Assembly: GCA_020975725.1 (NCBI GenBank)
Contig: QXJR01000016.1
Span: 574,689-638,688, forward strand
Source of the DNA: Picocystis sp. L7
Lineage: Eukaryota > Chlorophyta > Picocystophyceae > Picocystales > Picocystaceae
Reading direction: 5' to 3'
DNA: 64,000 nt
Part shown: positions 30,036 through 64,000 of the stretch, one piece after another
Position numbering within the stretch: position 1 is the first letter of the stretch
Layout of the letters: the number at the start of each line of letters is the position of its first letter
Notes under the pieces: generated by a model
Database searches by the model: none
The model's input: the letters and a program-made list of their open reading frames with translations, nothing else
Told to the model about the DNA's origin: nothing
Program-made: the position numbers and the translations under genes

Positions 30036-30068
30036 GTGCTGAATGGGACCCAAGAGATCTGCCTCAAT

Positions 30069-30755
30069 TGCCGTCACCTGCCTTCATGGATGTCCCAAAA
30101 GTAGCCCACCTGGCTGTCCGACGCCGTCACCTGCCACCCTAGATGTCCCAAAGTAGCCCACCTGGTTGTCTGACGCCGTCACCGGCCACCCTCGATGTCC
30201 CAAAAGCAGCCCACTTGGCTGTCCGAAGCCGTCATCTGCTCTCTTGGAAGTCTCAAAAGCAGCCCGCAACAATACCCACGGTCGACGCCTGCTGTCTTTT
30301 CGTTTCCTGCTAGTGGGTGTGGACAAGCTGCTTTGGCGTGTTGATTGACGTGCGTCTTTTTTTTCGGCTATGTTCGCGTTTTTGTGCGGTGATCTGTGGC
30401 GGGAAAGTCGTCGGGAATGGCTCAGTAGGTCGATCGATGTATCTGTCTTTTGGTTGTTTTGGCTAAGTCGTTTCCTTGTCCTCCGGTGAGACCTAAGGAT
30501 CCCCCCCCTTCGCCTCACAATGGAGCGGGAATTGCTCTGCGGCAATTGTCGCTCTCGAGACAGGCGATCAATGAGTCGGTGAATCGTTCAAGCGAATATT
30601 ACGAAGACACGAGGAGGAATCCTTGTTCCTTTGCATGTTTTGTTCAAAAGTGTATATTTACTCCTTGCTGTTTTGTTCGAATGGAACGGACGGTGGTTGA
30701 TCCCGCTGAGGAAAAAACAGGCTAATTTGTAGCCAGGCTACAAATAGATAAACCG
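30069..30755 (-). repeat. MULE right terminal inverted repeat (687 bp)
   Basis: This is the inverted partner of 26860-27546 and has exactly the same length. It contains the same tandem units of about 53 bp at its inner side (30069-30265). The transposase reading frame begins right at its inner edge. Confidence 0.88.
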
Positions 30756-31958: not shown

Positions 31959-32135
31959 ATCTTTCCAATAGGAACGTTTTTCTGCAAATTGCCCAATTCA
32001 GATGGGAGAATTGATGCCTGAATACCTAAGACATGTTCCAATCATGGGACGGAATTCCGATGAGCAAGTTCAGTATTGGTTTTTGCGCGGTCGAACCACG
32101 AAGGAAGCCCTACGGGTTTTCGGACGTGATCGCGC

Positions 32136-34487
32136 ATGGCGCCGCGACGGAAGCAACGCCAGCAACGGCCTCCGAATCCGCTCATCGAAGCGCGCGTTCG
32201 CATTCCAGCAACCGAGTTTGGCTTCGAATGGGCCCGTGAAGCGCATGGGGAGGCGTGGAGCGACACGTGGTATGACGGCGTGGTGCTCCGCCTCATACGT
32301 TTACGTACAGGAGAGCAGGAGGCCATCGTTCGCTGCCACACGGCGGGCACCTCGGCGGAGGAATGGCCGGTCACCGAGGAAACGGTGAACCGTTACAGGG
32401 TTGTCGAGCAACCACCGGAAGAAGAACCGCAGCGCGCGACCACGGAGGAAGAAAGACCCACCGGAATGGATGCCGGTGAGGATGACGACTTGGTACCTCC
32501 ACCCACGGAGGTACCACCGGAGGAGGCCTTCCTCGACGTCCAGGAGTGCGCGACGCTCCACGAGGAAGGCTTGGACCCGCTTGGAGATGGCGTGGACGCC
32601 AACGAAGTTGCTAGGAATGGTTTTGGAGTGGTGTGGGAGGAAGAGGAGGCGCATGTGACCGTCGACTCACATGCAGCCAATGGCGTCAGAGACAGGCATC
32701 AAGGCTATGCCTCGCCTTTGTCCTACATACCAGAGCCTTTTCGTGAGACAGAAGCATTGCAGTATTTCCTACGGTTCTTCCCGTACGAACTGTTGCCTGA
32801 TTGGACTGCTGAGATCACCAGACGTGGTCGAAGCAAGTACAACAGACCAGGTGACACTTTCTTGTCTTACGACAGAGAGTGTACACCTGGTATGTTGTTG
32901 AGGGTGCTTGGGTGCTTTGTGTACATGTTGTTGCACCCTGGACACAGCAGGAAGTCCTTCTGGCAGGTGATTGATGTGGAAAAGGACCCACTGGCGGTCC
33001 AGTTCAACCTAAACAAGTTCTTCTGCAGGAGGGACTTTGACCGCATTCTGGAATTTTTGGCAGACAGTGTGCCAAAATACACAGCGGAGCGAGGAGCGAG
33101 AGTGGACAGACCGGAGCAAGCTGGAGCTTGCAAGGGACCCAGAGGCACCCTGCATACACTGCGAGATGATCCTCATTGGGAACTGCGCAGGTTCTGGGAT
33201 GCATGGAATGCACATGCATCCCGGCATTACACTCCAAGCTGGCTGGTGGTTGTGGATGAATCCATGTTGAAATGGATGGGCCGGTACATGCCCTCTAGGA
33301 TGTTTCTGCGCAGGAAACCTAACCCGCTGGGCAGGGAGCTGAAAACTGTATGTGATGGGCTGACTGGTGTCTGCTTTCGTATGGAACCAGTGGAGAATGC
33401 AGGCTTGATGAAGGAGAAAGAATTCTTTGCAGAATTTGGCACCACAACGGCAACCACCCTCAGGCTAATGAAGCCGTTCTTTGGCAGTGGGCGTGTCTGC
33501 CTTGGTGACAGCTGGTTTGGGTCAGTCAAGACATGCTGTGCGCTGCTGGAGCGCGGTGTGTACTCCGTGTTGAATGTGAAAACAGCACACAGGGGTTACC
33601 CCAAGGCTGCACTTCAACGTTTCCTTTCGAGTGAGCCCAACCAACCTGGACTGACTGTTTGCATTCCAGGAGAAGTCTCTGTGCGCAGGACCCGCACCTT
33701 GATCAAGGCAACTGCCCATCGTGGGCCTGCTGGTGTACCACTGTGCTTGGTGTCTTCCTGCTTCACCACACAGCCAGCAGGCACCATGAAGTACATGATC
33801 AAGCATCCAACGGACACCACTCATCTGCTGGCAAAGCAGATCCCAGTAGATGAGACAACGCAGATGTACAGATCCAAGTACAGCATTGTGGACCAGCACA
33901 ACCGTTTGCGAACAGGTAGCGTTGCGTTCCACGACGTGTGGAAAACGCACGACTTTCGAATTCGCGAGCTGAGTGAGCTGATTGGATTGGCGGAGGTGAA
34001 CACCTTCCTGCTCATGCGTGCAAACGGAACAGGGCAGGTGCGACAGAAGCAATGCAGGATGCTCCTCGCAAAGGAGCTCCTGGAAAATCCGTGGATAATG
34101 GCAGAGTTGGAGACGGAGAGGCAGCAAGCTCTCCGTCTTCGTCCGTTGATCGCTGCGATGGGTGATTTGGGTGGAGGAAGTGGACACCGTCTGGTGGCAC
34201 TTGAGGAAGTGATGAGGACGAGTGGCGAAGACACGGAAGTGAGGAAGGTGACGCAGCGACGCTGCGTCATGTGCGGTAGGAAAGCCTCGGCAGCATGCCA
34301 GGCATGTCACAAGCCAAGTGAAGGCATCGTTGCCTACCTCTGTGGGCCATACACGGGCCGTGATTGTGCCGCACAACACATGGCGGGAGTCCCCTCTAGG
34401 CGACGCCGGAGGGTGTCGGGGGCGGACGTGCACACACCTGCACTGGCCCGTCTGATGCGAAGTCGGAGGCGTAGCTCCACAGAGTAA
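32136..34487 (+). CDS. piggyBac transposase, copy 1 (783 aa)
   Basis: This is an intact 783-aa frame. Residues 15-90 form a Tudor/chromo-like module (IPATEFGFEWAREAHG, WYDGVV, EEWPV...RYRV), and 92-170 is an acidic linker. The DDE_Tnp_1_7 (piggyBac) core spans about 195-620 with catalytic aspartates at D374 (VVVDESMLKWMGRYMP), D458 (VCLGDSWFGSVKTC) and D586 (SIVDQHNRLRTG). The last about 80 residues hold a Cys/His cross-brace finger (CVMCGRKASAACQACHK...C...C..H) like the C-terminal DNA-binding domain of piggyBac. The enzyme cuts and pastes its own element. This copy has Arg579 where copies 2 and 3 have Asn. Confidence 0.95.
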   Translation: MAPRRKQRQQRPPNPLIEARVRIPATEFGFEWAREAHGEAWSDTWYDGVVLRLIRLRTGEQEAIVRCHTAGTSAEEWPVTEETVNRYRVVEQPPEEEPQRATTEEERPTGMDAGEDDDLVPPPTEVPPEEAFLDVQECATLHEEGLDPLGDGVDANEVARNGFGVVWEEEEAHVTVDSHAANGVRDRHQGYASPLSYIPEPFRETEALQYFLRFFPYELLPDWTAEITRRGRSKYNRPGDTFLSYDRECTPGMLLRVLGCFVYMLLHPGHSRKSFWQVIDVEKDPLAVQFNLNKFFCRRDFDRILEFLADSVPKYTAERGARVDRPEQAGACKGPRGTLHTLRDDPHWELRRFWDAWNAHASRHYTPSWLVVVDESMLKWMGRYMPSRMFLRRKPNPLGRELKTVCDGLTGVCFRMEPVENAGLMKEKEFFAEFGTTTATTLRLMKPFFGSGRVCLGDSWFGSVKTCCALLERGVYSVLNVKTAHRGYPKAALQRFLSSEPNQPGLTVCIPGEVSVRRTRTLIKATAHRGPAGVPLCLVSSCFTTQPAGTMKYMIKHPTDTTHLLAKQIPVDETTQMYRSKYSIVDQHNRLRTGSVAFHDVWKTHDFRIRELSELIGLAEVNTFLLMRANGTGQVRQKQCRMLLAKELLENPWIMAELETERQQALRLRPLIAAMGDLGGGSGHRLVALEEVMRTSGEDTEVRKVTQRRCVMCGRKASAACQACHKPSEGIVAYLCGPYTGRDCAAQHMAGVPSRRRRRVSGADVHTPALARLMRSRRRSSTE

Positions 34488-34766
34488 TAGATCGATAAGT
34501 TGAGCTTCTAAGCCTTCAAATGAGCCGTGCCACGCGACGTGGGAGAGCGCGATGGGTGTACACGGACCGCGCGAAGTTGGGCGCTATTGTCCTATGGGTT
34601 GACGAAGGGTCGGATGTACGGGGCGCTGGACGACGACACGGGGCATCTCTCCGCTCATGCGCGTGGACTTAGAAGCTCCAAAGAGTTCGCTACACGTCCT
34701 AGAACGCGCAAAAGAGACGCGCATGGTTATGGTGGCGAACGCGCGCCAAACGTCATTGTCCCCGAT

Positions 34767-34784
34767 TGTCCTATATATAGGACA
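34767..34784. repeat. TATA-centred palindrome, junction 1/2
   Basis: Same 18-bp palindrome as at 31941; at this junction it extends to a perfect 22-bp palindrome (attgtcc...ggacaat). Confidence 0.85.
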
Positions 34785-34961
34785 ATCTTTCCAATAGGAA
34801 CGTTTTTCTGCAAATTGCCCAATTCAGATGGGAGAATTGATGCCTGAATACCTAAGACATGTTCCAATCATGGGACGGAATTCCGATGAGCAAGTTCAGT
34901 ATTGGTTTTTGCGCGGTCGAACCACGAAGGAAGCCCTACGGGTTTTCGGACGTGATCGCGC

Positions 34962-37313
34962 ATGGCGCCGCGACGGAAGCAACGCCAGCAACGGCCTCCG
35001 AATCCGCTCATCGAAGCGCGCGTTCGCATTCCAACAACCGAGTTTGGCTTCGAATGGGCCCGTGAAGCGCATGGGGAGGCGTGGAGCGACACGTGGTATG
35101 ACGGCGTGGTGCTCCGCCTCATACGTTTACGTACAGGAGAGCAGGAGGCCATCGTTCGCTGCCACACGGCGGGCACCTCGGCGGAGGAATGGCCGGTCAC
35201 CGAGGAAACGGTGAACCGTTACAGGGTTGTCGAGCAACCACCGGAAGAAGAACCGCAGCGCGCGACCACGGAGGAAGAAAGACCCACCGGAATGGATGCC
35301 GGTGAGGATGACGACTTGGTACCTCCACCCACGGAGGTACCACCGGAGGAGGCCTTCCTCGACGTCCAGGAGTGCGCGACGCTCCACGAGGAAGGCTTGG
35401 ACCCGCTTGGAGATGGCGTGGACGCCAACGAAGTTGCTAGGAATGGTTTTGGAGTGGTGTGGGAGGAAGAGGAGGCGCATGTGACCGTCGACTCACATGC
35501 AGCCAATGGCGTCAGAGACAGGCATCAAGGCTATGCCTCGCCTTTGTCCTACATACCAGAGCCTTTTCGTGAGACAGAAGCATTGCAGTATTTCCTACGG
35601 TTCTTCCCGTACGAACTGTTGCCTGATTGGACTGCTGAGATCACCAGACGTGGTCGAAGCAAGTACAACAGACCAGGTGACACTTTCTTGTCTTACGACA
35701 GAGAGTGTACACCTGGTATGTTGTTGAGGGTGCTTGGGTGCTTTGTGTACATGTTGTTGCACCCTGGACACAGCAGGAAGTCCTTCTGGCAGGTGATTGA
35801 TGTGGAAAAGGACCCACTGGCGGTCCAGTTCAACCTAAACAAGTTCTTCTGCAGGAGGGACTTTGACCGCATTCTGGAATTTTTGGCAGACAGTGTGCCA
35901 AAATACACAGCGGAGCGAGGAGCGAGAGTGGACAGACCGGAGCAAGCTGGAGCTTGCAAGGGACCCAGAGGCACCCTGCATACACTGCGAGATGATCCTC
36001 ATTGGGAACTGCGCAGGTTCTGGGATGCATGGAATGCACATGCATCCCGGCATTACACTCCAAGCTGGCTGGTGGTTGTGGATGAATCCATGTTGAAATG
36101 GATGGGCCGGTACATGCCCTCTAGGATGTTTCTGCGCAGGAAACCTAACCCGCTGGGCAGGGAGCTGAAAACTGTATGTGATGGGCTGACTGGTGTCTGC
36201 TTTCGTATGGAACCAGTAGAGAATGCAGGCTTGATGAAGGAGAAAGAATTCTTTGCAGAATTTGGCACCACAACGGCAACCACCCTCAGGCTAATGAAGC
36301 CGTTCTTTGGCAGTGGGCGCGTCTGCCTTGGTGACAGCTGGTTTGGGTCAGTCAAGACATGCTGTGCGCTGCTGGAGCGCGGTGTGTACTCCGTGTTGAA
36401 TGTGAAAACAGCACACAGGGGTTACCCCAAGGCTGCACTTCAACGTTTCCTTTCGAGTGAGCCCAACCAACCTGGACTGACTGTTTGCATTCCAGGAGAA
36501 GTCTCTGTGCGCAGGACCCGCACCTTGATCAAGGCAACTGCCCATCGTGGGCCTGCTGGTGTACCACTGTGCTTGGTGTCTTCCTGCTTCACCACACAGC
36601 CAGCAGGCACCATGAAGTACATGATCAAGCATCCAACGGACACCACTCATCTGCTGGCAAAGCAGATCCCAGTAGATGAGACAACGCAGATGTACAACTC
36701 CAAGTACAGCATTGTGGACCAGCACAACCGGTTGCGAACAGGTAGCGTTGCGTTCCACGACGTGTGGAAAACGCACGACTTTCGAATTCGCGAGCTGAGT
36801 GAGCTGATTGGATTGGCGGAGGTGAACACCTTCCTCCTCATGCGTGCAAACGGAACAGGGCAGGTGCGACAGAAGCAATGCAGGATGCTCCTCGCAAAGG
36901 AGCTCCTGGAAAATCCGTGGATAATGGCAGAGTTGGAGACGGAGAGGCAGCAAGCTCTCCGTCTTCGTCCGTTGATCGCTGCGATGGGTGATTTGGGTGG
37001 AGGAAGTGGACACCGTCTGGTGGCACTTGAGGAAGTGATGAGGACGAGTGGCGAAGACACGGAAGTGAGGAAGGTGACGCAGCGACGCTGCGTCATGTGC
37101 GGTAGGAAAGCCTCGGCAGCATGCCAGGCATGTCACAAGCCAAGTGAAGGCATCGTTGCCTACCTCTGTGGGCCATACACGGGCCGTGATTGTGCCGCAC
37201 AACACATGGCGGGAGTCCCCTCTAGGCGACGCCGGAGGGTGTCGGGGGCGGACGTGCACACACCTGCACTGGCCCGTCTGATGCGAAGTCGGAGGCGTAG
37301 CTCCACAGAGTAA
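34962..37313 (+). CDS. piggyBac transposase, copy 2 (783 aa)
   Basis: Intact and almost identical to copy 1. Residue 25 is Thr rather than Ala (RIPTTEFG) and residue 579 is Asn rather than Arg. All three catalytic aspartates, the Tudor-like N-terminus and the C-terminal Cys/His finger are kept. The near-identity and lack of any break show either recent movement or ongoing homogenisation within the array. Confidence 0.95.
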   Translation: MAPRRKQRQQRPPNPLIEARVRIPTTEFGFEWAREAHGEAWSDTWYDGVVLRLIRLRTGEQEAIVRCHTAGTSAEEWPVTEETVNRYRVVEQPPEEEPQRATTEEERPTGMDAGEDDDLVPPPTEVPPEEAFLDVQECATLHEEGLDPLGDGVDANEVARNGFGVVWEEEEAHVTVDSHAANGVRDRHQGYASPLSYIPEPFRETEALQYFLRFFPYELLPDWTAEITRRGRSKYNRPGDTFLSYDRECTPGMLLRVLGCFVYMLLHPGHSRKSFWQVIDVEKDPLAVQFNLNKFFCRRDFDRILEFLADSVPKYTAERGARVDRPEQAGACKGPRGTLHTLRDDPHWELRRFWDAWNAHASRHYTPSWLVVVDESMLKWMGRYMPSRMFLRRKPNPLGRELKTVCDGLTGVCFRMEPVENAGLMKEKEFFAEFGTTTATTLRLMKPFFGSGRVCLGDSWFGSVKTCCALLERGVYSVLNVKTAHRGYPKAALQRFLSSEPNQPGLTVCIPGEVSVRRTRTLIKATAHRGPAGVPLCLVSSCFTTQPAGTMKYMIKHPTDTTHLLAKQIPVDETTQMYNSKYSIVDQHNRLRTGSVAFHDVWKTHDFRIRELSELIGLAEVNTFLLMRANGTGQVRQKQCRMLLAKELLENPWIMAELETERQQALRLRPLIAAMGDLGGGSGHRLVALEEVMRTSGEDTEVRKVTQRRCVMCGRKASAACQACHKPSEGIVAYLCGPYTGRDCAAQHMAGVPSRRRRRVSGADVHTPALARLMRSRRRSSTE

Positions 37314-37592
37314 TAGATCGATAAGTTGAGCTTCTAAGCCTTCAAATGAGCCGTGCCACGCGACGTGGGAGAGCGCGATGGGTGTACACGGACCGCGCGA
37401 AGTTGGGCGCTATTGTCCTATGGGTTGACGAAGGGTCGGATGTACGGGGCGCTGGACGACGACACGGGGCATCTCTCCGCTCATGCGCGTGGACTTAGAA
37501 GCTCCAAAGAGTTCGCTACACGTCCTAGAACGCGCAAAAGAGACGCGCATGGTTATGGTGGCGAACGCGCGCCAAACGTCATTGTCCCCGAT

Positions 37593-37610
37593 TGTCCTAT
37601 ATATAGGACA
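37593..37610. repeat. TATA-centred palindrome, junction 2/3
   Basis: Exactly 2826 bp after the previous one and identical to it. Confidence 0.85.
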
Positions 37611-37787
37611 ATCTTTCCAATAGGAACGTTTTTCTGCAAATTGCCCAATTCAGATGGGAGAATTGATGCCTGAATACCTAAGACATGTTCCAATCATGGG
37701 ACGGAATTCCGATGAGCAAGTTCAGTATTGGTTTTTGCGCGGTCGAACCACGAAGGAAGCCCTACGGGTTTTCGGACGTGATCGCGC

Positions 37788-40139
37788 ATGGCGCCGCGAC
37801 GGAAGCAACGCCAGCAACGGCCTCCGAATCCGCTCATCGAAGCGCGCGTTCGCATTCCAGCAACCGAGTTTGGCTTCGAATGGGCCCGTGAAGCGCATGG
37901 GGAGGCGTGGAGCGACACGTGGTATGACGGCGTGGTGCTCCGCCTCATACGTTTACGTACAGGAGAGCAGGAGGCCATCGTTCGCTGCCACACGGCGGGC
38001 ACCTCGGCGGAGGAATGGCCGGTCACCGAGGAAACGGTGAACCGTTACAGGGTTGTCGAGCAACCACCGGAAGAAGAACCGCAGCGCGCGACCACGGAGG
38101 AAGAAAGACCCACCGGAATGGATGCCGGTGAGGATGACGACTTGGTACCTCCACCCACGGAGGTACCACCGGAGGAGGCCTTCCTCGACGTCCAGGAGTG
38201 CGCGACGCTCCACGAGGAAGGCTTGGACCCGCTTGGAGATGGCGTGGACGCCAACGAAGTTGCTAGGAATGGTTTTGGAGTGGTGTGGGAGGAAGAGGAG
38301 GCGCATGTGACCGTCGACTCACATGCAGCCAATGGCGTCAGAGACAGGCATCAAGGCTATGCCTCGCCTTTGTCCTACATACCAGAGCCTTTTCGTGAGA
38401 CAGAAGCATTGCAGTATTTCCTACGGTTCTTCCCGTACGAACTGTTGCCTGATTGGACTGCTGAGATCACCAGACGTGGTCGAAGCAAGTACAACAGACC
38501 AGGTGACACTTTCTTGTCTTACGACAGAGAGTGTACACCTGGTATGTTGTTGAGGGTGCTTGGGTGCTTTGTGTACATGTTGTTGCACCCTGGACACAGC
38601 AGGAAGTCCTTCTGGCAGGTGATTGATGTGGAAAAGGACCCACTGGCGGTCCAGTTCAACCTAAACAAGTTCTTCTGCAGGAGGGACTTTGACCGCATTC
38701 TGGAATTTTTGGCAGACAGTGTGCCAAAATACACAGCGGAGCGAGGAGCGAGAGTGGACAGACCTGAGCAAGCTGGAGCTTGCAAGGGACCCAGAGGCAC
38801 CCTGCATACACTGCGAGATGATCCTCATTGGGAACTGCGCAGGTTCTGGGATGCATGGAATGCACATGCATCCCGGCATTACACTCCAAGCTGGCTGGTG
38901 GTTGTGGATGAATCCATGTTGAAATGGATGGGCCGGTACATGCCCTCTAGGATGTTTCTGCGCAGGAAACCTAACCCGCTGGGCAGGGAGCTGAAAACTG
39001 TATGTGATGGGCTGACTGGTGTCTGCTTTCGTATGGAACCAGTAGAGAATGCAGGCTTGATGAAGGAGAAAGAATTCTTTGCAGAATTTGGCACCACAAC
39101 GGCAACCACCCTCAGGCTAATGAAGCCGTTCTTTGGCAGTGGGCGCGTCTGCCTTGGTGACAGCTGGTTTGGGTCAGTCAAGACATGCTGTGCGCTGCTG
39201 GAGCGCGGTGTGTACTCCGTGTTGAATGTGAAAACAGCACACAGGGGTTACCCCAAGGCTGCACTTCAACGTTTCCTTTCGAGTGAGCCCAACCAACCTG
39301 GACTGACTGTTTGCATTCCAGGAGAAGTCTCTGTGCGCAGGACCCGCACCTTGATCAAGGCAACTGCCCATCGTGGGCCTGCTGGTGTACCACTGTGCTT
39401 GGTGTCTTCCTGCTTCACCACACAGCCAGTAGGCACCATGAAGTACATGATCAAGCATCCAACGGACACCACTCATCTGCTGGCAAAGCAAATCCCAGTA
39501 GATGAGACAACGCAGATGTACAACTCCAAGTACAGCATTGTGGACCAGCACAACCGGTTGCGAACAGGTAGCGTTGCGTTCCACGACGTGTGGAAAACGC
39601 ACGACTTTCGAATTCGCGAGCTGAGTGAGCTGATTGGATTGGCGGAGGTGAACACCTTCCTCCTCATGCGTGCAAACGGAACAGGGCAGGTGCGACAGAA
39701 GCAATGCAGGATGCTCCTCGCAAAGGAGCTCCTGGAAAATCCGTGGATAATGGCAGAGTTGGAGACGGAGAGGCAGCAAGCTCTCCGTCTTCGTCCGTTG
39801 ATCGCTGCGATGGGTGATTTGGGTGGAGGAAGTGGACACCGTCTGGTGGCACTTGAGGAAGTGATGAGGACGAGTGGCGAAGACACGGAAGTGAGGAAGG
39901 TGACGCAGCGACGCTGCGTCATGTGCGGTAGGAAAGCCTCGGCAGCATGCCAGGCATGTCACAAGCCAAGTGAAGGCATCGTTGCCTACCTCTGTGGGCC
40001 ATACACGGGCCGTGATTGTGCCGCACAACACATGGCGGGAGTCCCCTCTAGGCGACGCCGGAGGGTGTCGGGGGCGGACGTGCACACACCTGCACTGGCC
40101 CGTCTGATGCGAAGTCGGAGGCGTAGCTCCACAGAGTAA
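37788..40139 (+). CDS. piggyBac transposase, copy 3 (783 aa)
   Basis: Intact. It differs from copy 1 at residue 548 (Val for Ala in TTQPVGTMKY) and at residue 579 (Asn for Arg), and shares Ala25 with copy 1. The catalytic triad and zinc finger are complete. Shared third-position differences (for example 'ccagtagagaatgc') group copies 2 and 3 against copy 1, suggesting that 2 and 3 derive from the most recent duplication step. Confidence 0.95.
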   Translation: MAPRRKQRQQRPPNPLIEARVRIPATEFGFEWAREAHGEAWSDTWYDGVVLRLIRLRTGEQEAIVRCHTAGTSAEEWPVTEETVNRYRVVEQPPEEEPQRATTEEERPTGMDAGEDDDLVPPPTEVPPEEAFLDVQECATLHEEGLDPLGDGVDANEVARNGFGVVWEEEEAHVTVDSHAANGVRDRHQGYASPLSYIPEPFRETEALQYFLRFFPYELLPDWTAEITRRGRSKYNRPGDTFLSYDRECTPGMLLRVLGCFVYMLLHPGHSRKSFWQVIDVEKDPLAVQFNLNKFFCRRDFDRILEFLADSVPKYTAERGARVDRPEQAGACKGPRGTLHTLRDDPHWELRRFWDAWNAHASRHYTPSWLVVVDESMLKWMGRYMPSRMFLRRKPNPLGRELKTVCDGLTGVCFRMEPVENAGLMKEKEFFAEFGTTTATTLRLMKPFFGSGRVCLGDSWFGSVKTCCALLERGVYSVLNVKTAHRGYPKAALQRFLSSEPNQPGLTVCIPGEVSVRRTRTLIKATAHRGPAGVPLCLVSSCFTTQPVGTMKYMIKHPTDTTHLLAKQIPVDETTQMYNSKYSIVDQHNRLRTGSVAFHDVWKTHDFRIRELSELIGLAEVNTFLLMRANGTGQVRQKQCRMLLAKELLENPWIMAELETERQQALRLRPLIAAMGDLGGGSGHRLVALEEVMRTSGEDTEVRKVTQRRCVMCGRKASAACQACHKPSEGIVAYLCGPYTGRDCAAQHMAGVPSRRRRRVSGADVHTPALARLMRSRRRSSTE

Positions 40140-44330: not shown

Positions 44331-45560
44331 GAAGGGGTATCGTACTCCTTACTCAGTGGGTAGCCCCAATGGTTCGGACCCGTAAGCCATGATCCCATAT
44401 GAACCGTGACGGGGCTCGTTCATAGGAGGAGGCCACGGCCTTACGCAAAACAATGTGCTTACTGGGGTATACCGCGAGGTGTTGAGTAGGTAAACCAGTA
44501 GTGGAAAAAGGACAATGTACCAATGCATACAGTTTCAGAGCATTAAGAGGTCAAGTCTTGCCACCAATAGTATGGTATTCTTGCACACCAATACTATATC
44601 GGGGCACGCATTGAGTTCTTGGCTAGGACCGGACTAATAAGGAGTATTAGAAAAAGGATGGGACCACCCCAGGGCAACACACCTATTGGCCCTACTTTAG
44701 GGGCGGTAGATCTTGCTTGACATGAACGTTGCATCCTAATTTTTGGGGGTGTACTCTGAAACTTCCGTAGATGGGATTCCATCCCTCTCCCCTCGGAACG
44801 ATGAAGACGGTTGATCCTCCATTGAGTGAAGATTCCCTTGGGTTCATGGGTATGTCTAAACCGATTGAATTTGGCCGATGGATCCAAAGGACGAGCGCCT
44901 CGATGGCAAGAGTGTGCTTGGTGGAGGCTTCTGAGAGTGTAATCGATCGATCATATCATGCATGTTAAGTATCTGAGGTGGCATTCGTGCGACCCATAGA
45001 GAGCGCAGTGCCAGCAGGACCGTTCCGGACCGTCGTCCATGCCGGCCTACATGATAGAGCTTCATTTCCCAACAGAGAAGAAGCTCACACACAGGCATTC
45101 CTGACCCAGGTTTCTCGAAAGGATCCTTAACGGGGCCGGAAAGCAATGAAAAAAAGAAGCAAGTAACGGAAAAAGGGAAGAGAACAGAAGAAAGGGAGAG
45201 AAAAAAGAACGGGCGTCCCTTTTCTTCCACAAGGAGCTCTTCTCAAAACTCACACATGCACAAAAAGACTCGGACCTTGTACCCTTGGCCCATCCATCGC
45301 CCATGCGAGGACTGCTCAAGCAACCTTGTTCTTCAATCCATAGCAAGCGCTAGTCAATCGGGTGCAATTGGATTAAAACGAAGCAGTCCTCCATCGAAAA
45401 GCCTGCATGGTCCACTTTCCGAATCCCCATGCACAAACTCCTGCATCACTTCTGACAGCCTTGGGTGAGCAAACACGCAAGCACAGTGGACAGTAGGAAA
45501 GGAAAAACTTTACAAAACCTTATGTTTCTGACCGTAGTCAAGCATGTCGAAACCTATATC

Positions 45561-47366
45561 TCACGCATTGACCAGCTGTCCCCCTCCGAAAATCTTGAGG
45601 TCCGATCGAAGGGATCCTGGATATCCAGGCCACGCGCGATTTGTCTTCCCCGCGGCAGTGGATCCCCCTTCCCCATAAGCTGGGTTGCTGCCTCCGGAAA
45701 ACATGCCACGGTCAAGCTCCTTGTTGGGAGAGACACCTGTGCCAACCAAGGACCCATCCAGGAACACCCGTATGCGACCGGGACCACGGATGCGGATGTC
45801 CACCACCACCTCGTGTGCCTGTCCATCCAAGGGGAACCCTTCCGTTTCTAGACGGGCGGTTCCTGGTCCCGGGGGATCCGTGCCTGCCCCTGCACGCGCC
45901 ACCAGCATCGGTGGATTGCCGGCCACCAGTCCCACCCAGGTCCCTCTCCCTCTGGCTCCGTGGTTGAACAACATCACATCCTCCTCCACAGTGCTGGGGA
46001 AAACAACCTTGCAAGCAAATACGATGTCCTGGTTGAGCACTTCCTCGTTGGAAAAAGGACCTGCAGGGACCGAGCGGGACAGCGTCAAGGGAGCCGTCAG
46101 ATTGGGCGGGGGCATCGTGGTGACCTGGCCTACCCAATGGGTCGTGCAAACCATGTGCATCTGCGCGTTGCCCTGAGAAATCGAACAGCTTCGATTGACC
46201 TCCTCCAGTCCAAAGGTCGTATCCGGCAAGGAGGGGGACGGCGTGGGTGGGGGTGGAGGAGGTGCAAAAGGAGGGCCTGGTGGATTTGGGGGGAGGGTAG
46301 GCTCGGGAGATGGTTCTGGTAAGGGTGGTGGAGGAGGGTCAAACAGATCCTCTTCCACGCACGAAGTTTCCTGCATCTCATATGGATTGTTTGGTGCATC
46401 ACAAGCTCCCCCGTATTCGGGTTCAACGATGAAACTCCACCCCCGCGTTCTCCTGAAATAATTGGGATCGGAAGTTGATGGTAAACATTCCGACCAATCG
46501 TCCCATTGCCACTCGCAAGGTACAGGTTCCGGCAATACGCACACGTTTTCTTTGCACAACATCGACCTGGTATTGTAATGCTCGTGACATTCCACATCTT
46601 TGACGCAAGTGAAGGAAGGCAACGCTTCTAAGATGCCTTCCAGCCCTGACTCTGATTCGGAGACTATGGTAAAGTCGAGTTTTGTACACCACCCATTCAT
46701 CACACCATTGCCGTCTACATTGACATGTTTTACAATCCCTGCAACTGGGCAGTCCCCCCCAACTACACCATCTCCGGCACCAAGATACCGAAGCTGTCCT
46801 GTGGCCTGTGCTACAGTTGGATTTCGTACATGAACTACGTTGGGTGAAGATTGATTCACCAATTCCCATTTTCCAATGCTCGTTTTGTTTTTGGGTACCA
46901 AAACAGCATGCCATTGGTGTGGAGAAAAATACACGTAGAGTCCGGTTGATACTTCTTTCAGATTAGAACCGTCCGGTTGGAAAACTGCAATAGGATTTGT
47001 GCTCCCGCCTGAGTCTATCGGATCGAACGTCAGTGCGTATATCATGTAGAACGCACGATTCAGGTCATATTCACGGGTATATCGAACGTATTGGTCGTTC
47101 ATATTCAAACGAAACTGAAACATGGGCGTTTCTTCCTGTATTGCCGTTTGCATCACCCTGGCTCCCATATTGTATAGTTTCCCCTCGCTTCCCCTTGCAG
47201 AGCCTGCATAAAGCAAGGGAGTTGACAGCATGAGTGTGAGGGTGGAGGCTGTCCTCCGGCCAATCCACAGCGACCCGTGTGAAAAGATCTCAATGGGCAA
47301 AACCCATGACCACCACGTCCCTTTCCATCCCGTACGTCCAGATGCACGATCCCGTCCAGAATCCAT
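45561..47366 (-). CDS. Secreted-type TSP1/laminin-G-like protein, left paralog
   Basis: This is a 601-aa frame. Residues 1-81 are identical to the right paralog and include a hydrophobic stretch STLTLMLSTPLLYAGSARGS that may be a signal peptide (a start at a later Met is possible). Residues 82-344 are unique to this copy. Within them CVKDVECHEHYNTRSMLC is EGF-like, and CEWQWDDWSEC with later YGGACDAPNNPYEMQETSC resembles a thrombospondin type 1 repeat. A Pro-rich hinge follows (PEPTLPPNPPGPPFAPPPPP), then a domain of about 210 residues (VFACKVVFPSTVEEDVMLFN ... HEVVVDIRIRGPGRIRVFLD) with the sandwich-strand pattern of laminin-G/ConA-like lectins. An extracellular or surface role is inferred. 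Confidence 0.8.
   Translation of the reverse strand: MDSGRDRASGRTGWKGTWWSWVLPIEIFSHGSLWIGRRTASTLTLMLSTPLLYAGSARGSEGKLYNMGARVMQTAIQEETPMFQFRLNMNDQYVRYTREYDLNRAFYMIYALTFDPIDSGGSTNPIAVFQPDGSNLKEVSTGLYVYFSPHQWHAVLVPKNKTSIGKWELVNQSSPNVVHVRNPTVAQATGQLRYLGAGDGVVGGDCPVAGIVKHVNVDGNGVMNGWCTKLDFTIVSESESGLEGILEALPSFTCVKDVECHEHYNTRSMLCKENVCVLPEPVPCEWQWDDWSECLPSTSDPNYFRRTRGWSFIVEPEYGGACDAPNNPYEMQETSCVEEDLFDPPPPPLPEPSPEPTLPPNPPGPPFAPPPPPPTPSPSLPDTTFGLEEVNRSCSISQGNAQMHMVCTTHWVGQVTTMPPPNLTAPLTLSRSVPAGPFSNEEVLNQDIVFACKVVFPSTVEEDVMLFNHGARGRGTWVGLVAGNPPMLVARAGAGTDPPGPGTARLETEGFPLDGQAHEVVVDIRIRGPGRIRVFLDGSLVGTGVSPNKELDRGMFSGGSNPAYGEGGSTAAGKTNRAWPGYPGSLRSDLKIFGGGQLVNA
46335..47122 (-). other. Variable cassette, left (788 bp)
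   Basis: This part of the left gene does not match the right arm at nucleotide level except in short words, although the encoded proteins remain alignable (for example YALTFD, STGLYV, AVLVP, the HYNT segment and GGACDAP). Its edges are abrupt: identity stops at 'acgccca' on the 5' side and starts again at 'cctccacc' on the 3' side. Confidence 0.85.
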
Positions 47367-47618
47367 CGTTGGTGTCCGCGCGTCCGTCGCGTCTCCGTTC
47401 CCTTGGTGTCGACTTGCGCTCTCTTCGGTTCCCGCGCGGGACGTGCGTTAGCACTGGCGTCGGACGTTCCTTCCCTCCACGTCCGGAAGTGTGTGTCAGG
47501 GTCGTCCGGGTCACGTCTGACCCTGCGTTGTCCTCCCGAGGGCGGATAGGACCATGGTGTCGCCGTGGTGGTCTTTTGGTGAGAGTAGATGTCTACAGCT
47601 GCCCCAACCGAAGACGAA

Positions 47619-47744
47619 ACCCTGATACCATCCAGGGTCCCCATCCACGGACCGTGTAGATACCCCTGCCCCTCAGGCACCCTGACCCTGTCCTTACTGT
47701 CCCTTGGTGGGGTCGGGGCTTCCGGAAGCTTCCGGAATCGGGGG
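47619..47744. promoter_or_regulatory. 126-bp spacer between inverted arms, bidirectional promoter zone
   Basis: This is the only sequence between the two identical inner arms. The starts of the two divergent genes lie 630 bp apart, so both promoters fall within the duplicated inner arms plus this spacer and should be the same on both sides. The spacer has a small palindrome 'tccggaagcttccgga' at its right. Confidence 0.5.
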
Positions 47745-47996
47745 TTCGTCTTCGGTTGGGGCAGCTGTAGACATCTACTCTCACCAAAAGACCACCACGG
47801 CGACACCATGGTCCTATCCGCCCTCGGGAGGACAACGCAGGGTCAGACGTGACCCGGACGACCCTGACACACACTTCCGGACGTGGAGGGAAGGAACGTC
47901 CGACGCCAGTGCTAACGCACGTCCCGCGCGGGAACCGAAGAGAGCGCAAGTCGACACCAAGGGAACGGAGACGCGACGGACGCGCGGACACCAACG

Positions 47997-49814
47997 ATGG
48001 ATTCTGGACGGGATCGTGCATCTGGACGTACGGGATGGAAAGGGACGTGGTGGTCATGGGTTTTGCCCATTGAGATCTTTTCACACGGGTCGCTGTGGAT
48101 TGGCCGGAGGACAGCCTCCACCCTCACACTCATGCTGTCAACTCCCTTGCTTTATGCAGGCTCTGCAAGGGGAAGCGAGGGGAAACTATACAATATGGGA
48201 GCCAGGGTGATGCAAACGGCAATACAGGAAGAAACGCCCACCCCCACATTTCGATTGTCCATTCAAAGCCAGTTCGTTCGATACACAGACAATATCAATT
48301 TGAGTCGACCCATTCATATCAAATACGCGCTGACCTTCGATGAACCCAATCCGATCGCGGAATTTAGCGTGGTGAATCGAACGTTATGCGAAGTCAACAC
48401 GGGTTTGTATGTCTCCGGGGTGGCATGGTCGCAACCGGGTGAACAGTTCAACGCCGTACTGGTACCGGGAACGCATGCGTACAATCGGGCCGTCATGGAA
48501 ATGATCGATGGGGAAGAGTCCGGGACCGTGCGTCTCCGTAACTTGGTCGATATGGGGATCAATCGTATCTGGTACCTCGGAGGTGGACAAGACGAGGATA
48601 CGTGTTGTTGTCCCGTTTCCGGGTTGGTGAAGCACGTGTTTCGAGACAGAGACGGGACCATGGGGAACTTTTTCAGCTGGTGTACCCACTTCGATTTTAC
48701 GCTTCATGCAAACGGGTCCAGCGATCGGGCCCAGATTCGGTCGAAGCTGCTTCCTATGGACTGTCAGACCGATGCCGATTGTCATGAGCAATACAATACC
48801 TTGGCGATGTCGTGTGAATGGAACCAGTGCGTCCACCCGGAACAAGTCGATTGCATTTGGGAATGGATGCCGTGGTCCCCGGATCCATGTGAACCTTCAG
48901 ACATTCAAACAAGCACGTGGTTCTACATTCAAGAACCTTTGCATGGAGGATTATGCGATGCACCAGCAGACAAAAACATCGCACGGGAGAGACATTGTCC
49001 ATCTTTTTTCGACAGTCCGGATGGTGGTGGGTCTCCAGAGCCTCCACCACCCTTACCAGAACCATCTCCCGAGCCTACCCTCCCCCCAAATCCACCAGGC
49101 CCTCCTTTTGCACCTCCTCCACCCCCACCCACGCCGTCCCCCTCCTTGCCGGATACGACCTTTGGACTGGAGGAGGTCAATCGAAGCTGTTCGATTTCTC
49201 AGGGCAACGCGCAGATGCACATGGTTTGCACGACCCATTGGGTAGGCCAGGTCACCACGATGCCCCCGCCCAATCTGACGGCTCCCTTGACGCTGTCCCG
49301 CTCGGTCCCTGCAGGTCCTTTTTCCAACGAGGAAGTGCTCAACCAGGACATCGTATTTGCTTGCAAGGTTGTTTTCCCCAGCACTGTGGAGGAGGATGTG
49401 ATGTTGTTCAACCACGGAGCCAGAGGGAGAGGGACCTGGGTGGGACTGGTGGCCGGCAATCCACCGATGCTGGTGGCGCGTGCAGGGGCAGGCACGGATC
49501 CCCCGGGACCAGGAACCGCCCGTCTAGAAACGGAAGGGTTCCCCTTGGATGGACAGGCACACGAGGTGGTGGTGGACATCCGCATCCGTGGTCCCGGTCG
49601 CATACGGGTGTTCCTGGATGGGTCCTTGGTTGGCACAGGTGTCTCTCCCAACAAGGAGCTTGACCGTGGCATGTTTTCCGGAGGCAGCAACCCAGCTTAT
49701 GGGGAAGGGGGATCCACTGCCGCGGGGAAGACAAATCGCGCGTGGCCTGGATATCCAGGATCCCTTCGATCGGACCTCAAGATTTTCGGAGGGGGACAGC
49801 TGGTCAATGCGTGA
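47997..49814 (+). CDS. Secreted-type TSP1/laminin-G-like protein, right paralog
   Basis: This is a 605-aa frame in mirror orientation to the left paralog. Residues 1-81 and 349-605 (Pro-rich hinge plus laminin-G-like domain) are identical to it as read. Residues 82-348 form this copy's own variable domain: TFRLSIQSQFVRYTDNINLS at its start, an extra CCC cluster (GQDEDTCCCPVSG), the EGF-like CQTDADCHEQYNTLAMSC, and a TSP1-like CIWEWMPWSPDPC with GGLCDAPADKNIARERHC. Domain order and cysteine spacing resemble the left copy, but most residues differ. It is probably an extracellular matrix or surface protein; the binding partner is unknown. Confidence 0.8.
   Translation: MDSGRDRASGRTGWKGTWWSWVLPIEIFSHGSLWIGRRTASTLTLMLSTPLLYAGSARGSEGKLYNMGARVMQTAIQEETPTPTFRLSIQSQFVRYTDNINLSRPIHIKYALTFDEPNPIAEFSVVNRTLCEVNTGLYVSGVAWSQPGEQFNAVLVPGTHAYNRAVMEMIDGEESGTVRLRNLVDMGINRIWYLGGGQDEDTCCCPVSGLVKHVFRDRDGTMGNFFSWCTHFDFTLHANGSSDRAQIRSKLLPMDCQTDADCHEQYNTLAMSCEWNQCVHPEQVDCIWEWMPWSPDPCEPSDIQTSTWFYIQEPLHGGLCDAPADKNIARERHCPSFFDSPDGGGSPEPPPPLPEPSPEPTLPPNPPGPPFAPPPPPPTPSPSLPDTTFGLEEVNRSCSISQGNAQMHMVCTTHWVGQVTTMPPPNLTAPLTLSRSVPAGPFSNEEVLNQDIVFACKVVFPSTVEEDVMLFNHGARGRGTWVGLVAGNPPMLVARAGAGTDPPGPGTARLETEGFPLDGQAHEVVVDIRIRGPGRIRVFLDGSLVGTGVSPNKELDRGMFSGGSNPAYGEGGSTAAGKTNRAWPGYPGSLRSDLKIFGGGQLVNA
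48241..49040 (+). other. Variable cassette, right (800 bp)
   Basis: Counterpart of 46335-47122. It is 12 bp longer and codes for a domain of the same type but with very different residues. The exact flank lengths on both sides (496 and 1115 bp) equal those of the left arm. Confidence 0.85.
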
Positions 49815-50495
49815 GATATAGGTTTCGACATGCTTGACTACGGTCAGAAACATAAGGTTTTGTAAAGTTTTTCCTTTCCTACTGTCCACTGTGCTTGCGT
49901 GTTTGCTCACCCAAGGCTGTCAGAAGTGATGCAGGAGTTTGTGCATGGGGATTCGGAAAGTGGACCATGCAGGCTTTTCGATGGAGGACTGCTTCGTTTT
50001 AATCCTATTGCACCCGATTGACTAGCGCTTGCTATGGATTGAAGAACAAGGTTGCTTGAGCAGTCCTCGCATGGGCGATGGATGGGCCAAGGGTACAAGG
50101 TCCGAGTCTTTTTGTGCATGTGTGAGTTTTGAGAGGAGCTCCTTGTGGAAGAAAAGTGTTGAGAGACCTGGGTGCAGGGATCCCTTTGCGGAAGTTTCTT
50201 CTCTATTGGGAGAAGAAACTCTATCGTGCAAGCAGGCAGGGACGACGGTCTCGAACGGACCAACTACCACCGTGCTCTCGATGGGCCGCACGAATCTGAC
50301 CTCGGATACTTCACATGCATGAGTAAACAGAATGATTGCACTCTCAAAAGCCACCACCAAGCACACTCTTGCCATCAAGATTCTCGTCCATTGGATCCAT
50401 CAACCGAACTCCGTCGGATTAGACCGACGAACTTGCCCAAGGGAGTCTTCAGGGAACTTAGGATCAACTGTCTCAAAGAAGGGACACCCTGTCTT

Positions 50496-51169
50496 TTTTC
50501 TGTCCCTTTCTTCCACCCCTTTTACGGTCCGTTTAGGATCCCCTTTCGGAAGGGCAACCCGGGAAACACCGTTCTCCCATACCCCCCGATCCCCTGTTCG
50601 TTCGTTCGTTCGCCACGTTCCCGTACCCGGACGCCGTACGCCCGCGAAACACGGGAAATATCTCGGGAAACATCGTGTGGAGAACCCCGCCGTGGATGGG
50701 CGGGCATCCCCAACTGGATCCCTCCCAGTTCCTCCCTCGGCGGTTGGAGAACCCAAACTCGCACGAGGAGAGCCACAAATGGACAACAAGACGAGGCAAG
50801 GCGGGCAGGCGGAACACCACAGGGGAAGCTAGAGGGCTGGAGGATGCGTGGAAGACGAAGCAGGAGGCGGATCAAAGAGAAGGCTTGGTGGAACGGAGGC
50901 GGAAAAAGGGGGAAGGAGGCGTGACGCGTGGGGAAAGGGGGGTGTGAGGCACTGGACGACATCTTCGGATGTGCAGCGAGGCGTTGCGAACAAAATGGAG
51001 TGCGAGCCTCGAATGCGTGGGGAATCTTTGGAATAGGCGTGTGTTGCATAAGGCAATGGCCTCCTCCTGTGAACGAGGCCCATTAGGGTCCGTCGAGACT
51101 CTGGCTTACGGGTCCGAACCATCGAGGCTACCCATCGAGTAAGGGATCTGATATCCCTTTGGAATACAA
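50496..51169. other. No gene seen
   Basis: GC-rich sequence with low-complexity Arg/Gly/Ser frames on both strands and no domain. Confidence 0.35.
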
Positions 51170-56028: not shown

Positions 56029-56249
56029 TGTATGTGCACGTAGCACAATGTTTGAGTACACTTTTCTATTTATATTACAACCAGCGTCGCACCATTCACT
56101 TCCACTCGCAGAAACCGATCGAGTGGTGGATTTTTGCTGAATAAAGGGAGGAATTGATTTCAAACGATGTACGAGACAAGTCACTCAATACTAGAGTTTG
56201 CATTACAATATGTCTATCGTGCTTGCGGATCCTTGGTTAATGGTGGTTT

Positions 56250-56880
56250 TGCTGCCACCGAGTTTGCTGCCACCAGGAAGGAAGGTTGCTGCCACCGAGT
56301 TTGCTGCCACCAGGAAGGAAGATTGCTACCACCAAGTTTGCTGCCACCGAGTTTGCTGCCACCAGGAAGGAAGGTTGCTGCCACCGAGTTTGCTGCCACC
56401 AGGAAGGAAGGTTGCTGCCATCAAGTTTGCTGCCACCAGGAAGGAAGGTTGCTGCCACCGAGTTTGCTGCCACCAGGAAGGAAGGTTGCTGCCACCAGGA
56501 AGGAAGGTTGCTGCCATCAAGTTTTCTGCCACCAGGAAGGAAGATTGCTACCACCAAGTTTGCTGCCACCGAGTTTGCTGCCACCAGGAAGGAAGGTTGC
56601 TGCCACCGAGTTTGCTGCCACCAGGAAGGAAGGTTGCTGCCATCAAGTTTGCTGCCACCAGGAAGGAAGGTTGCTGCCACCGAGTTTGCTGCCACCAGGA
56701 AGGAAGGTTGCTGCCACCAGGAAGGAAGGTTGCTGCCATCAAGTTTTCTGCCACCAGGAAGGAAGATTGCTGCCACCAAGTTTGCTGCCACCGAGTTTGC
56801 TGCCACCAGGAAGGAAGGTTGCTGCCACCGAGTTTGCTGCCACTAGGAAGGAAGATTGGTGCCATCGAGTTTGCTGCCAA
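56250..56880. repeat. 37-bp minisatellite with 222-bp higher-order period
   Basis: The block consists of 37-bp units like 'tttgctgccaccaggaaggaaggttgctgccaccgag', with variants in which accgag becomes atcaag. The variant 'gattgct(a/g)cc' recurs at 56321, 56543 and 56765, exactly 222 bp (six units) apart, so blocks of six units were duplicated. It lies between the two genes of the Harbinger element. Confidence 0.9.
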
Positions 56881-57064
56881 GAAGATAGGTATTGGAAGTG
56901 CTTGCGGGAAGGCATAGAATGATGAAGAAGACGAACTTGGACATCAAGCAGGATCATCTTCCATTTGTATGTCTTCCTCACTGTAAGAAGAGCGTTCGCC
57001 ATCTACACCGCACAAAGTTAGCCCAGTGAACGAAAAGCGCCACCCTTTGCGTCGTATCGTTTTG

Positions 57065-61925: not shown

Positions 61926-63953
61926 CTACGTCTCTAGAGACTCATTGCTTGGGTTGTCGACGAATGCCTGGCTTGCTTGCAAGGTCAACAGTTCTTCAAG
62001 GCCCACCTTGAATCTTTTCTTTCTTTGCTGGTGGCTGGAAAGCGTAGCTCTTTGCTTCCAAGTCAGGTCTTTCACATATTGCAGCTTCATAATTTGGGTC
62101 CTCGATCGTTGGAGAATCCTCTGATCTTGAGGAAATACCCGTACACCGTTGTGCACTTGTAGAGCCAAGATGTGCTTGCACAAACCACAACCTATGTAAT
62201 CGAAACAAGTGCACGTATCCTTGACCACTATCCATTTTGCTTTCCTCTCGCAATATTGTGAAAGACTTTCTTGCTTTGAAGGTTCCAATCCACAAGTGAT
62301 GTGCTTGTGAGCTTCCTTGAAGAGCAATTTTTGTACTTGTGCCTCACATTCTTGAAGAAATTCTTGCTCTACGACTTTAGAATGAAACAACCCCTTTTGA
62401 ACTACTTCCTTTGCAATACTTTGCGCTTCTCCATACACATGTTGAAGGAAGTTGTTTGATGGTAGCAATACACAATCATCAACCTCTTGCCGGAGGGCCC
62501 AATCAGCACTTAGTAGGAGCAAGTCCACATCTTCCCACATTGTCCTTCGAATAACCAATCGACGCTCGTTTGAAAAGGTGTATTCCCGCATTTTTTCACG
62601 TACCAATGATCCAATTCCTACCATGAGCGGTTTGAAGGCCTTGTGCACATCTAGCCGCCTCTGTGTGGCTCTGCTTGGCATATGCACCGTCTTAAAAGTT
62701 CGATTGTTGCTCTCATGTCCTTGGTTGCTCACCGGGAATCCGTGTGGTGCATCGCAACGAGCCCAGTTTTTGAATGGTCCACCATAAGTACTCTTCCACC
62801 ATTTCTTGAAGGCTTCGAATTTGGCGCACTCTTGTTCAAATTTATCCAACAATTCCTCCTTCACTTGCTTGGTTGGACTAAAAGATATGTGTTTGATGTA
62901 TCCGGCAATTACTGTCGCGCTATTTGTCGGCACTCCATACTTTTTGCAAGCTTGCTGTAGATTTCCATCCACTCGGCTCAAGTGCGCATAACAGTCTTGC
63001 TGATGCCAAGCCAACTGTCTTTCATTAAAAAATGCCTGGATTCCTGAGTGCAAACCTGCACCTGCATCTTTCAAAATGTAAATACCATCGAAAAATCGTT
63101 CGGCATCAACTGAGAGGATGTCCCAGATTGAATTCAAAAACAAAACTGTGGTAGCTTGACTCTCAACAGGAACAATGCTATAGAGGATTGGAAACCAATG
63201 ATTGCCACCATCAGTGACTCCGCTTGCCATGAGTATGAATCGGTCACCGGTGAAAACTTTGAAAGTTGCATCTATCGTGAATTGCTTTGCGTTGTTTGTT
63301 TCACATAATGCTCTTGCCCATTCTACCATTTGAGGGCATGAGAAGCTCACTTTGAATTCTTGAAAAAAAGATGCTTCATCAACTTCAAGTGGCAAACACC
63401 AATCGACAACGTATACTTCATCCTTTTGGTACAATTTGCTTGCATCATAAGAGTTCATCTCAAGCAAATGTTTGATGTCTTGAATGCTACCTTGACAACC
63501 ATTTTTTTGCCTTTGATACACCAAGAAATTTCTTAACATCTTCTTTGTGATGCCGTCCACAATTAGCCCTTCCTTCTCAAGTTGTTGCATTATCCGCGGA
63601 ACACGTAAATCACTATCAACATATTTGACCAATTCCACTCGAATACCCAATGGAAGGCCTTTCTTGGTCTTTGAACAAGGAAGCATGCATTGACTATGGT
63701 CATGTTTGTCCTTCGAGAGCAAAGCCAAATGTCCACTACTTTTTCTTATCAAAATTGCCTTGGCCGTACAACCACTACTTTCAGCTCCATTACAAACCCA
63801 TCTTTCCATGAGAAGACAATCATCATGAGTTCTACGAGGATACTTTCCATTTTCCTTTCCTTTCGAGGTCTTTTTCTTCCATTTTCCCACCACATCAGGT
63901 TGAAGAGCTTGCAAATTTGACTTAAGCCAATCTTGCTCAACTTCACAAAGATG
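61926..63953 (-). CDS. Mutator-like transposase, 5' end cut by telomere
   Basis: The frame is open from the telomere junction to 61926, about 675 codons, with no ATG in the first about 35 codons, so the original start is missing. The N-terminus has a FLYWCH-like zinc region (MERWVCNGAESSGCTAKAIL ... DKHDHSQC). The MULE transposase core follows (KQFTIDATFKVFTGDRFILM, YILKDAGAGLHSGIQAFFNE, WHQQDCYAHLSRVDGNLQQA), then a SWIM finger (CTCFDYIGCGLCKHILALQV). Apart from the lost start, no stop or shift is seen. Length and domain order fit Mutator transposases of 650-750 aa. It is unrelated at sequence level to the FAR1-type copy at 28-30 kb beyond the shared superfamily. Confidence 0.85.
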   Translation of the reverse strand, partial: HLCEVEQDWLKSNLQALQPDVVGKWKKKTSKGKENGKYPRRTHDDCLLMERWVCNGAESSGCTAKAILIRKSSGHLALLSKDKHDHSQCMLPCSKTKKGLPLGIRVELVKYVDSDLRVPRIMQQLEKEGLIVDGITKKMLRNFLVYQRQKNGCQGSIQDIKHLLEMNSYDASKLYQKDEVYVVDWCLPLEVDEASFFQEFKVSFSCPQMVEWARALCETNNAKQFTIDATFKVFTGDRFILMASGVTDGGNHWFPILYSIVPVESQATTVLFLNSIWDILSVDAERFFDGIYILKDAGAGLHSGIQAFFNERQLAWHQQDCYAHLSRVDGNLQQACKKYGVPTNSATVIAGYIKHISFSPTKQVKEELLDKFEQECAKFEAFKKWWKSTYGGPFKNWARCDAPHGFPVSNQGHESNNRTFKTVHMPSRATQRRLDVHKAFKPLMVGIGSLVREKMREYTFSNERRLVIRRTMWEDVDLLLLSADWALRQEVDDCVLLPSNNFLQHVYGEAQSIAKEVVQKGLFHSKVVEQEFLQECEAQVQKLLFKEAHKHITCGLEPSKQESLSQYCERKAKWIVVKDTCTCFDYIGCGLCKHILALQVHNGVRVFPQDQRILQRSRTQIMKLQYVKDLTWKQRATLSSHQQRKKRFKVGLEELLTLQASQAFVDNPSNESLET

Positions 63954-63954
63954 G

Positions 63955-64000
63955 TTTAGGGTTAGGGTTAGGGTTTAGGGTTTAGGGTTTAGGGTTTAGG
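63955..64000 (+). repeat. Telomere, TTTAGGG type
   Basis: Units in order: TTTAGGG, TTAGGG, TTAGGG, then TTTAGGG three times and a cut unit at the window end. The G-rich strand runs 5' to 3' toward position 64000, as at a right chromosome end. The first units include two TTAGGG variants. Confidence 0.95.

Follow-up and report, generated by a model that had tools for sequence, protein, structure and literature searches.

Variation of surface-protein genes at chromosome ends is known mainly from parasites, among them Trypanosoma and Plasmodium, whose VSG and var genes, respectively, form subtelomeric families of variant surface genes. A different kind of resemblance is to the palindromes of ape sex chromosomes, the arms of which are subject to concerted evolution. 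Here, we describe a locus of Picocystis sp. L7, a minute green alga of salt lakes, that is comparable in part to both. Within a stretch of 64,000 nucleotides (assembly GCA_020975725.1, contig QXJR01000016.1, positions 574,689 to 638,688; hereafter, the window), two head-to-head (divergent) genes, A and B, share near-identical ends around a strongly diverged central cassette. In our reading, to which we assign a probability of roughly 0.7, these genes are members of a group of modular genes, encoding surface proteins and located at chromosome ends, and arm-to-arm conversion within the pair homogenises the flanks while the central segment stays different. The msg genes of Pneumocystis are similar in that they are many chromosome-end genes for surface proteins, with mosaics and conserved modules around variable parts (PMC10622565). 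Unlike in msg, VSG and var, no archive of this cassette was found and no single expression site was seen in the genome searched (20.5 Mb in 30 contigs, denoted here by C-numbers, with the window being the end of contig C14), and the organism is a free-living alga; conversely, the alga has mirror pairs with homogenised arms and some relatives that are receptor kinases. Among open-licence papers, most of which were judged by title and the start of the abstract, we recognised none describing such an arrangement in Picocystis or in any other green alga.

The 5' tracts of A and B (promoter side and codons 1–81) are identical over 496 bp, with 0 mismatches, and the 3' tracts, 1116 bp long rather than the 1115 bp initially noted, differ at 2 positions (45240 and 45369), each 3' of the stop codon. 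Accordingly, there is no coding difference in codons 1–81 and none from residue 345 of gene A, in the hinge, to the end. The cassettes between the tracts, of 788 and 800 bp, are alike only at the protein level, with 103 of 250 aligned residues identical (41%), and the edges between tract and cassette are abrupt at the base level, such that the layout described in the original prediction holds in each of these respects. Given that synonymous sites of the cassettes are saturated (proportion of synonymous differences, pS, 0.835; of nonsynonymous differences, pN, 0.421; pN/pS about 0.5), A and B look like old relatives under constraint in this part rather than freshly mutated copies. The comparison of the nonsynonymous to synonymous ratio (dN/dS) in cassette and flanks that had been proposed as a check yielded these cassette values but no ratio for the flanks, which have no coding difference.

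The head-to-head arrangement is itself old. The 126-bp spacer between the 5' tracts matches that of a similar pair on C10, with agreement at 119 of 126 positions when aligned in one orientation compared with 57 of 114 in the other; being single-copy at each locus, it is beyond the reach of arm-to-arm homogenisation. Because this unique spacer is common to the two loci in one orientation, the head-to-head unit predates their split. Despite this ancestral arrangement, the 5' halves are alike within pairs (0 of 315 differences in the window, 1 of 284 at C10) and 9% apart between pairs (25–26 of 282), which is concerted evolution of the arms, presumably by gene conversion. Likeness that is greater within than between pairs, although the pair is ancestral, is what is expected of palindrome arms, and the near-identical inverted arms of ape palindromes are comparable, the difference being that here a segment within the gene is not homogenised. 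A recent inverted duplication of one gene, with one cassette subsequently replaced from an allele or a lost paralogue, would readily account for the near-identity of the A and B flanks, for the abrupt ends of the C10 arms and for an environmental protein, P0002 (see below), which has a cysteine-rich part similar to the terminal portion of each cassette. We nevertheless consider this scenario unlikely because the spacer shared with C10 in one orientation makes the pair older than the identity of its arms, and a search at E ≤ 10 found no donor cassette in this genome.

The division into homogenised flanks and a differing middle recurs at C10 and, largely, at C4. In the window, 372 of 753 aligned cassette positions differ (plus 82 gap columns) compared with 2 of 1612 outside; the corresponding counts are 19 of 639 (plus 225 gap columns) and 2 of 2777 at C10, and 40 of 387 and 4 of 882 at C4, where the ectodomain limits at C10 and C4 are those of the matches to the DUF285 repeats (PF03382), the profiles had been viewed before the outer bounds of the arms were fixed for counting, and the C4 count leaves out the 5' end of the gene (11261–11319), which is diverged as well. 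In the left arm at C4 (C4:9992–13039), blocks matching a C22 gene alternate with blocks matching the partner arm; ten sites break this order. The comparison ends where telomere repeats cut off the C22 gene. On C22 (L079, C22:365300–366534), a DUF285 gene gives way to telomere repeats partway through its repeat array, which resembles the healing of a broken chromosome end at this point. At C10 (L024, C10:26000–35999), the kinase copies on the two arms are 99–100% alike in each 150-bp block and have the same set of stops (TGA, TAG and TAA). The two arms of C10 have therefore probably been made equal, or arose by duplication, later than the break; the open reading frames (ORFs) of the ectodomains stay open.

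Several points weigh against our reading, including the late choice of arm limits, on account of which Fisher p-values are descriptive only, and the omission at C4. Only 3 of the 10 head-to-head pairs examined combine homogenised flanks with a differing ectodomain. The seven others (C8, C12, C23 twice, C24, C28 twice) are 67–90% alike in aligned pieces and have no long near-identical tract, with 3.2–5.3 kb read for six of them and with the DUF285 pairs on C5, C7 and C11 lying outside the comparison. Furthermore, the differing part at C10 and C4 is a repeat array, which is able to change without selection, and dN/dS gives no sign of diversifying selection, with pN below pS in all three pairs (window, C10 and C4).

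The outer flanks bear on what limits homogenisation. They were originally regarded as diverged arms of an inverted duplication (44760–45219 against 50156–50495), and they do align at 77% (44805–45116 with 50161–50473). The aligned part, however, is a dispersed element of approximately 313 bp that occurs in at least 33 places in the genome, both window flanks included (40 of 52 candidates scored), and the left copy is up to 82% identical to other copies compared with 77% to the right one. Twelve of these copies form six pairs spaced 4.69–4.79 kb apart, a layout that would be expected of the long terminal repeats (LTRs) of a retrotransposon. We therefore reject the flanks as residual duplication arms and, since they are mostly copies of a dispersed element, they are by themselves no proof of an old duplication. 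What stands of that claim is approximately 35 bp of residual homology, at 88.6% identity: the homogenised 3' tract ends exactly where the right-arm element starts, and gene-side homology resumes at about 50479. This short piece hints that the arms differed before the tracts were homogenised, and such resumption at lower identity is not what a recent duplication would leave. Palindromes are prone to collapse or chimeras in assembly, and an assembly artefact at the inverted repeat was envisaged from the start; the different open cassettes on the two arms, the two mismatches in the 3' tract, the different insertion sites of the element and the similar layout at C10 and C4 render this extremely unlikely.

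The exact stop of the 3' tract at the right-arm insertion fits a non-adaptive explanation, in which conversion homogenises what is alike and halts at segments that are too different or at an inserted element, so that the difference between the cassettes is a relic. The mechanism is compatible with the one we favour and dispenses with selection. The extent of cassette divergence given above, the cassette pN/pS of about 0.5 and the position of the C10 differences in a self-similar repeat array are all in line with it. It accounts less well for the ectodomain being the place of difference in 3 of 3 near-identical pairs (at C4, together with the 5' end), and for C4, where the ectodomains are still mostly alike and yet the difference has not been erased. 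We give this explanation a substantial but less than even chance; for the window, the data are explained almost as well by a relic impassable to conversion as by selection for diversity.

Under the reading we prefer, a bidirectional promoter unit with two head-to-head genes would be ancestral to the window locus, C10 and C28. Gene conversion between arms would then have kept promoter, N-terminus and C-terminus alike in the window and C10 pairs, and largely so at C4, with the central, presumably outer-facing segment staying different within each pair; over longer times, different ectodomains may have come to be combined with the modules for the promoter/N-terminus, for the proline hinge and for the C-terminus or the transmembrane-kinase part. 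At the level of the assembled sequence, the mosaic, the ancestral arrangement at the window and C10, the recurrence at three loci, and the module sharing and chromosome-end clustering described next can be taken as established; conversion, rather than repeated re-duplication, is the cause that we infer.

Module sharing, another element of the original prediction, extends across the genome. The two C10 arms, C4:1.21M, C13, C21 and the right-hand C28 gene all carry the promoter and first 21 codons of the window pair, there joined to DUF285 repeats; with the left-hand C28 gene, only the promoter is shared, and the likeness of gene A to the C4 and C10 genes is limited to promoter and codons 1–21. 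In two receptor-kinase genes, C4:1.21M and C26, DNA identity is 93.4% over the part that starts within the proline hinge and continues to the end, and there is no DNA match upstream of this part, the ectodomain ahead of the hinge being DUF285 in the former and matching no Pfam family in the latter (L076, C26:20700–24200, an open frame of 1028 aa with the same hinge–kinase chassis). The left C28 gene and C21 are 95.2% identical from within the transmembrane segment onward, just after the hinge, and gene A and C1 are 94% identical from codon 420, beside a second short proline run, such that module joins coincide with proline-rich stretches or lie beside them. C4:1.21M and C26 also contain the Pfam domain MLKL_N, placed after the transmembrane segment and before the kinase domain (E-values of 2.8e-13 and 9.3e-13, both passing the cut-off). 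The ten MLKL_N matches in the genome all lie at sites that the kinase-protein search also matched; ectodomains were read at all but three of these loci.

These genes cluster at chromosome ends. All 6 loci with the 5' module are within 60 kb of a contig end, as are 46 of 50 DUF285 genes, a number that is a lower bound formed from 150 of 167 matches, compared with the 17% of the genome that this zone represents. Among the same matches, close DUF285 gene neighbours are divergent in 11 cases, convergent in 0 and tandem in 1. The window ends in TTTAGGG-type (plant-type) repeats at 64000, approximately 14–19 kb from the gene pair, which bears out the telomere-adjacent location. Such repeats are present on 6 of 23 contig starts examined (C3, C10, C12, C19, C20 and C23) and at the right ends of C14 and C22, and are missing from the right end of C21; a contig end is thus not always a telomere.

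The DUF285 genes link this family to described ones. PARCEL/DUF285 genes are reported from Ostreococcus, Micromonas and a diatom and are described as being in flux within genomes (Roske et al. 2010, PMC2996958), and here too, genes with the promoter or the C-terminal module carry DUF285, although A and B lack it. The parts of that survey consulted here cover where such genes occur and how they are distributed over chromosomes; mirror pairs at chromosome ends and joins of modules are not among their topics. Plant MLKL-type proteins act in immunity and cell death, and such kinases, for example, wheat Pm13, have an MLKL N-terminal helical domain followed by a kinase (PMC10951266). The C4 and C26 relatives have the same order, but with a transmembrane segment and an ectodomain ahead, parts that A and B lack.

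Outside this genome, the closest protein relative of gene A, among the best 8000 candidates by shared words, is an uncharacterised Picocystis salinarum protein with 94% identity across 37% of gene A. A search with the C-terminal domain identified five proteins, P0001–P0005, among 2846 candidates. The domain is joined to DUF285 in P0001 and P0003 and to DUF285 and a fibronectin-type domain in P0004; the join with DUF285 is present in a P. salinarum protein and in environmental proteins. P0005 consists of the C-terminal domain alone and is identical at 269 of 270 residues to C21:460418. In the environmental P0002, the domain is accompanied by the cysteine-rich part that resembles the end of both cassettes, a likeness resting on approximately 85 residues and a full-length search of the best 8000 candidates by shared words. 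When the cassette part of B was searched against the protein database, none of 554 candidates matched at E ≤ 0.01, P0002 being among the unmatched. Among viral contigs, five stretches fit a pattern for the C-terminal domain but none is a relative. DUF285 proteins are numerous in an algal giant virus (PMC10720644) and expressed in diatoms, for which a link to high latitudes has been noted (PMC11992049); given these occurrences, other roles for the family are possible.

The proteins encoded by A and B have a moderately hydrophobic stretch at residues 39–55 and no strong one elsewhere; on this basis, the designation as secreted-type proteins is plausible only. Pfam (E ≤ 1) yielded no family for A and one match below the cut-off for B (0.36), and neither DUF285, present in module-sharing relatives, nor MLKL_N with a kinase domain was found by Pfam in either protein. 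Against PDB sequences (E ≤ 10), neither the cysteine-rich part nor the C-terminal domain of A by itself gave a match. The C-terminal domain had been called lectin-like; no match to a lectin (LamG/ConA-like) was obtained at the sequence level with Pfam (E ≤ 1) or PDB sequences, which leaves this label unsupported. A nine-member profile had 17 weak matches to PDB sequences (best 0.0011, huntingtin), judged from names and positions to reflect proline-rich stretches or composition. A thrombospondin-1-like reading of the cysteine-rich cassette end, suggested by motif spacing, was unsupported, and an intron sought by eye in the N-terminal region was rejected, as each join tried introduced a stop, put the frame out of phase or removed the hydrophobic stretch.

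We infer that the proteins reach the cell surface or the outside, and one may reasonably conjecture that the family recognises other cells, microbes or viruses. The kinase-bearing relatives may signal, with A and B, which lack transmembrane and kinase parts, perhaps serving as secreted or wall-bound partners. A more specific and doubtful version is germline-diversified nonself- or self-recognition, in which swappable ectodomains would be mounted on a chassis of promoter, hinge, transmembrane segment, MLKL-like bundle and kinase, possibly a cell-death module, A and B would act as ligands or decoys, and conversion would keep the chassis uniform while leaving two ectodomain versions per locus. 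Such an architecture in a free-living alga, tied to MLKL-like receptor kinases, would allow one to ask whether it evolves for recognition in general rather than for immune escape, and the mirror pairs provide a natural test of the limits on gene conversion.

The original prediction further drew a parallel to surface variation of the VSG, var or msg kind. In a true switch system, an expression site would be supplied from an archive of cassettes or by a segment that inverts. The chromosome-end multigene family, the shared 5' modules and the inverted arms would suit such a system, but no silent cassette archive was found: besides both window cassettes, the genome has only one match to the A/B cassette (E 0.235, in a search at E ≤ 10). 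A, B and the other 5'-module genes each have their own 5' module, complete in both A and B, the cassette differences look old and constrained, and no host-immunity setting is known for this free-living alga. We consider true antigenic variation very unlikely.

Table 1 Features of the gene pair and its surroundings in the window (positions count from the first nucleotide of the window)
Feature	Position	Strand	Basis or remark
Gene A, 601 aa: N-terminus shared with gene B, then cassette A, a proline hinge and a conserved C-terminal domain	45561..47366	-	open frame
Gene B, 605 aa: layout as gene A, with cassette B	47997..49814	+	open frame
Gene A 5' tract, spanning promoter side and codons 1–81	47123..47618	-	identical to 5' tract of gene B; exact mapping
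5' tract of gene B	47745..48240	+	exact mapping
Cassette A (residues ~82–344), 788 bp, diverged	46335..47122	-	exact mapping
Cassette B (residues ~82–348), 800 bp	48241..49040	+	exact mapping
Proline-rich hinge of gene A, limits approximate	46221..46337	-	alignment; edge of cassette and 3' tract at hinge start (46334)
Proline-rich hinge of gene B, limits approximate	49038..49154	+	alignment
Left-arm 3' tract, comprising hinge, C-terminal domain and sequence beyond the stop	45219..46334	-	exact mapping
3' tract, right arm	49041..50156	+	exact mapping
Single-copy asymmetric spacer between 5' tracts; centre of presumed bidirectional promoter	47619..47744	.	common to C10 pair; in halves with C28
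LTR-like dispersed element at outer end of right 3' tract, limits approximate	50157..50478	+	50161–50473 aligns
Second member of this LTR-like family, on left arm ~100 bp more outward, at a different insertion site	44805..45116	-	
Residual homology to 45187–45221 beyond homogenised tract	50479..50513	+	88.6% over ~35 bp
Telomere-type repeats (TTTAGGG)	63954..64000	+	repeats at contig end

The GC content of the window is 54%, close to the 53.6% of the published Picocystis strain ML draft (PMC6346183). Elsewhere in the window, three tandem, nearly identical open frames of 785 aa occupy positions 32130–40139, the first one tested containing a DDE_Tnp_1_7 (piggyBac-type) transposase domain, and a minisatellite at 56158–56922 gives long open frames in several frames because of its short repeat. 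An open frame that runs into the telomere repeats (61926–63974) has a weak MULE match, below the cut-off (0.014), and the ORF at 28671–30083 is a clear match to a MULE transposase (9.9e-23).

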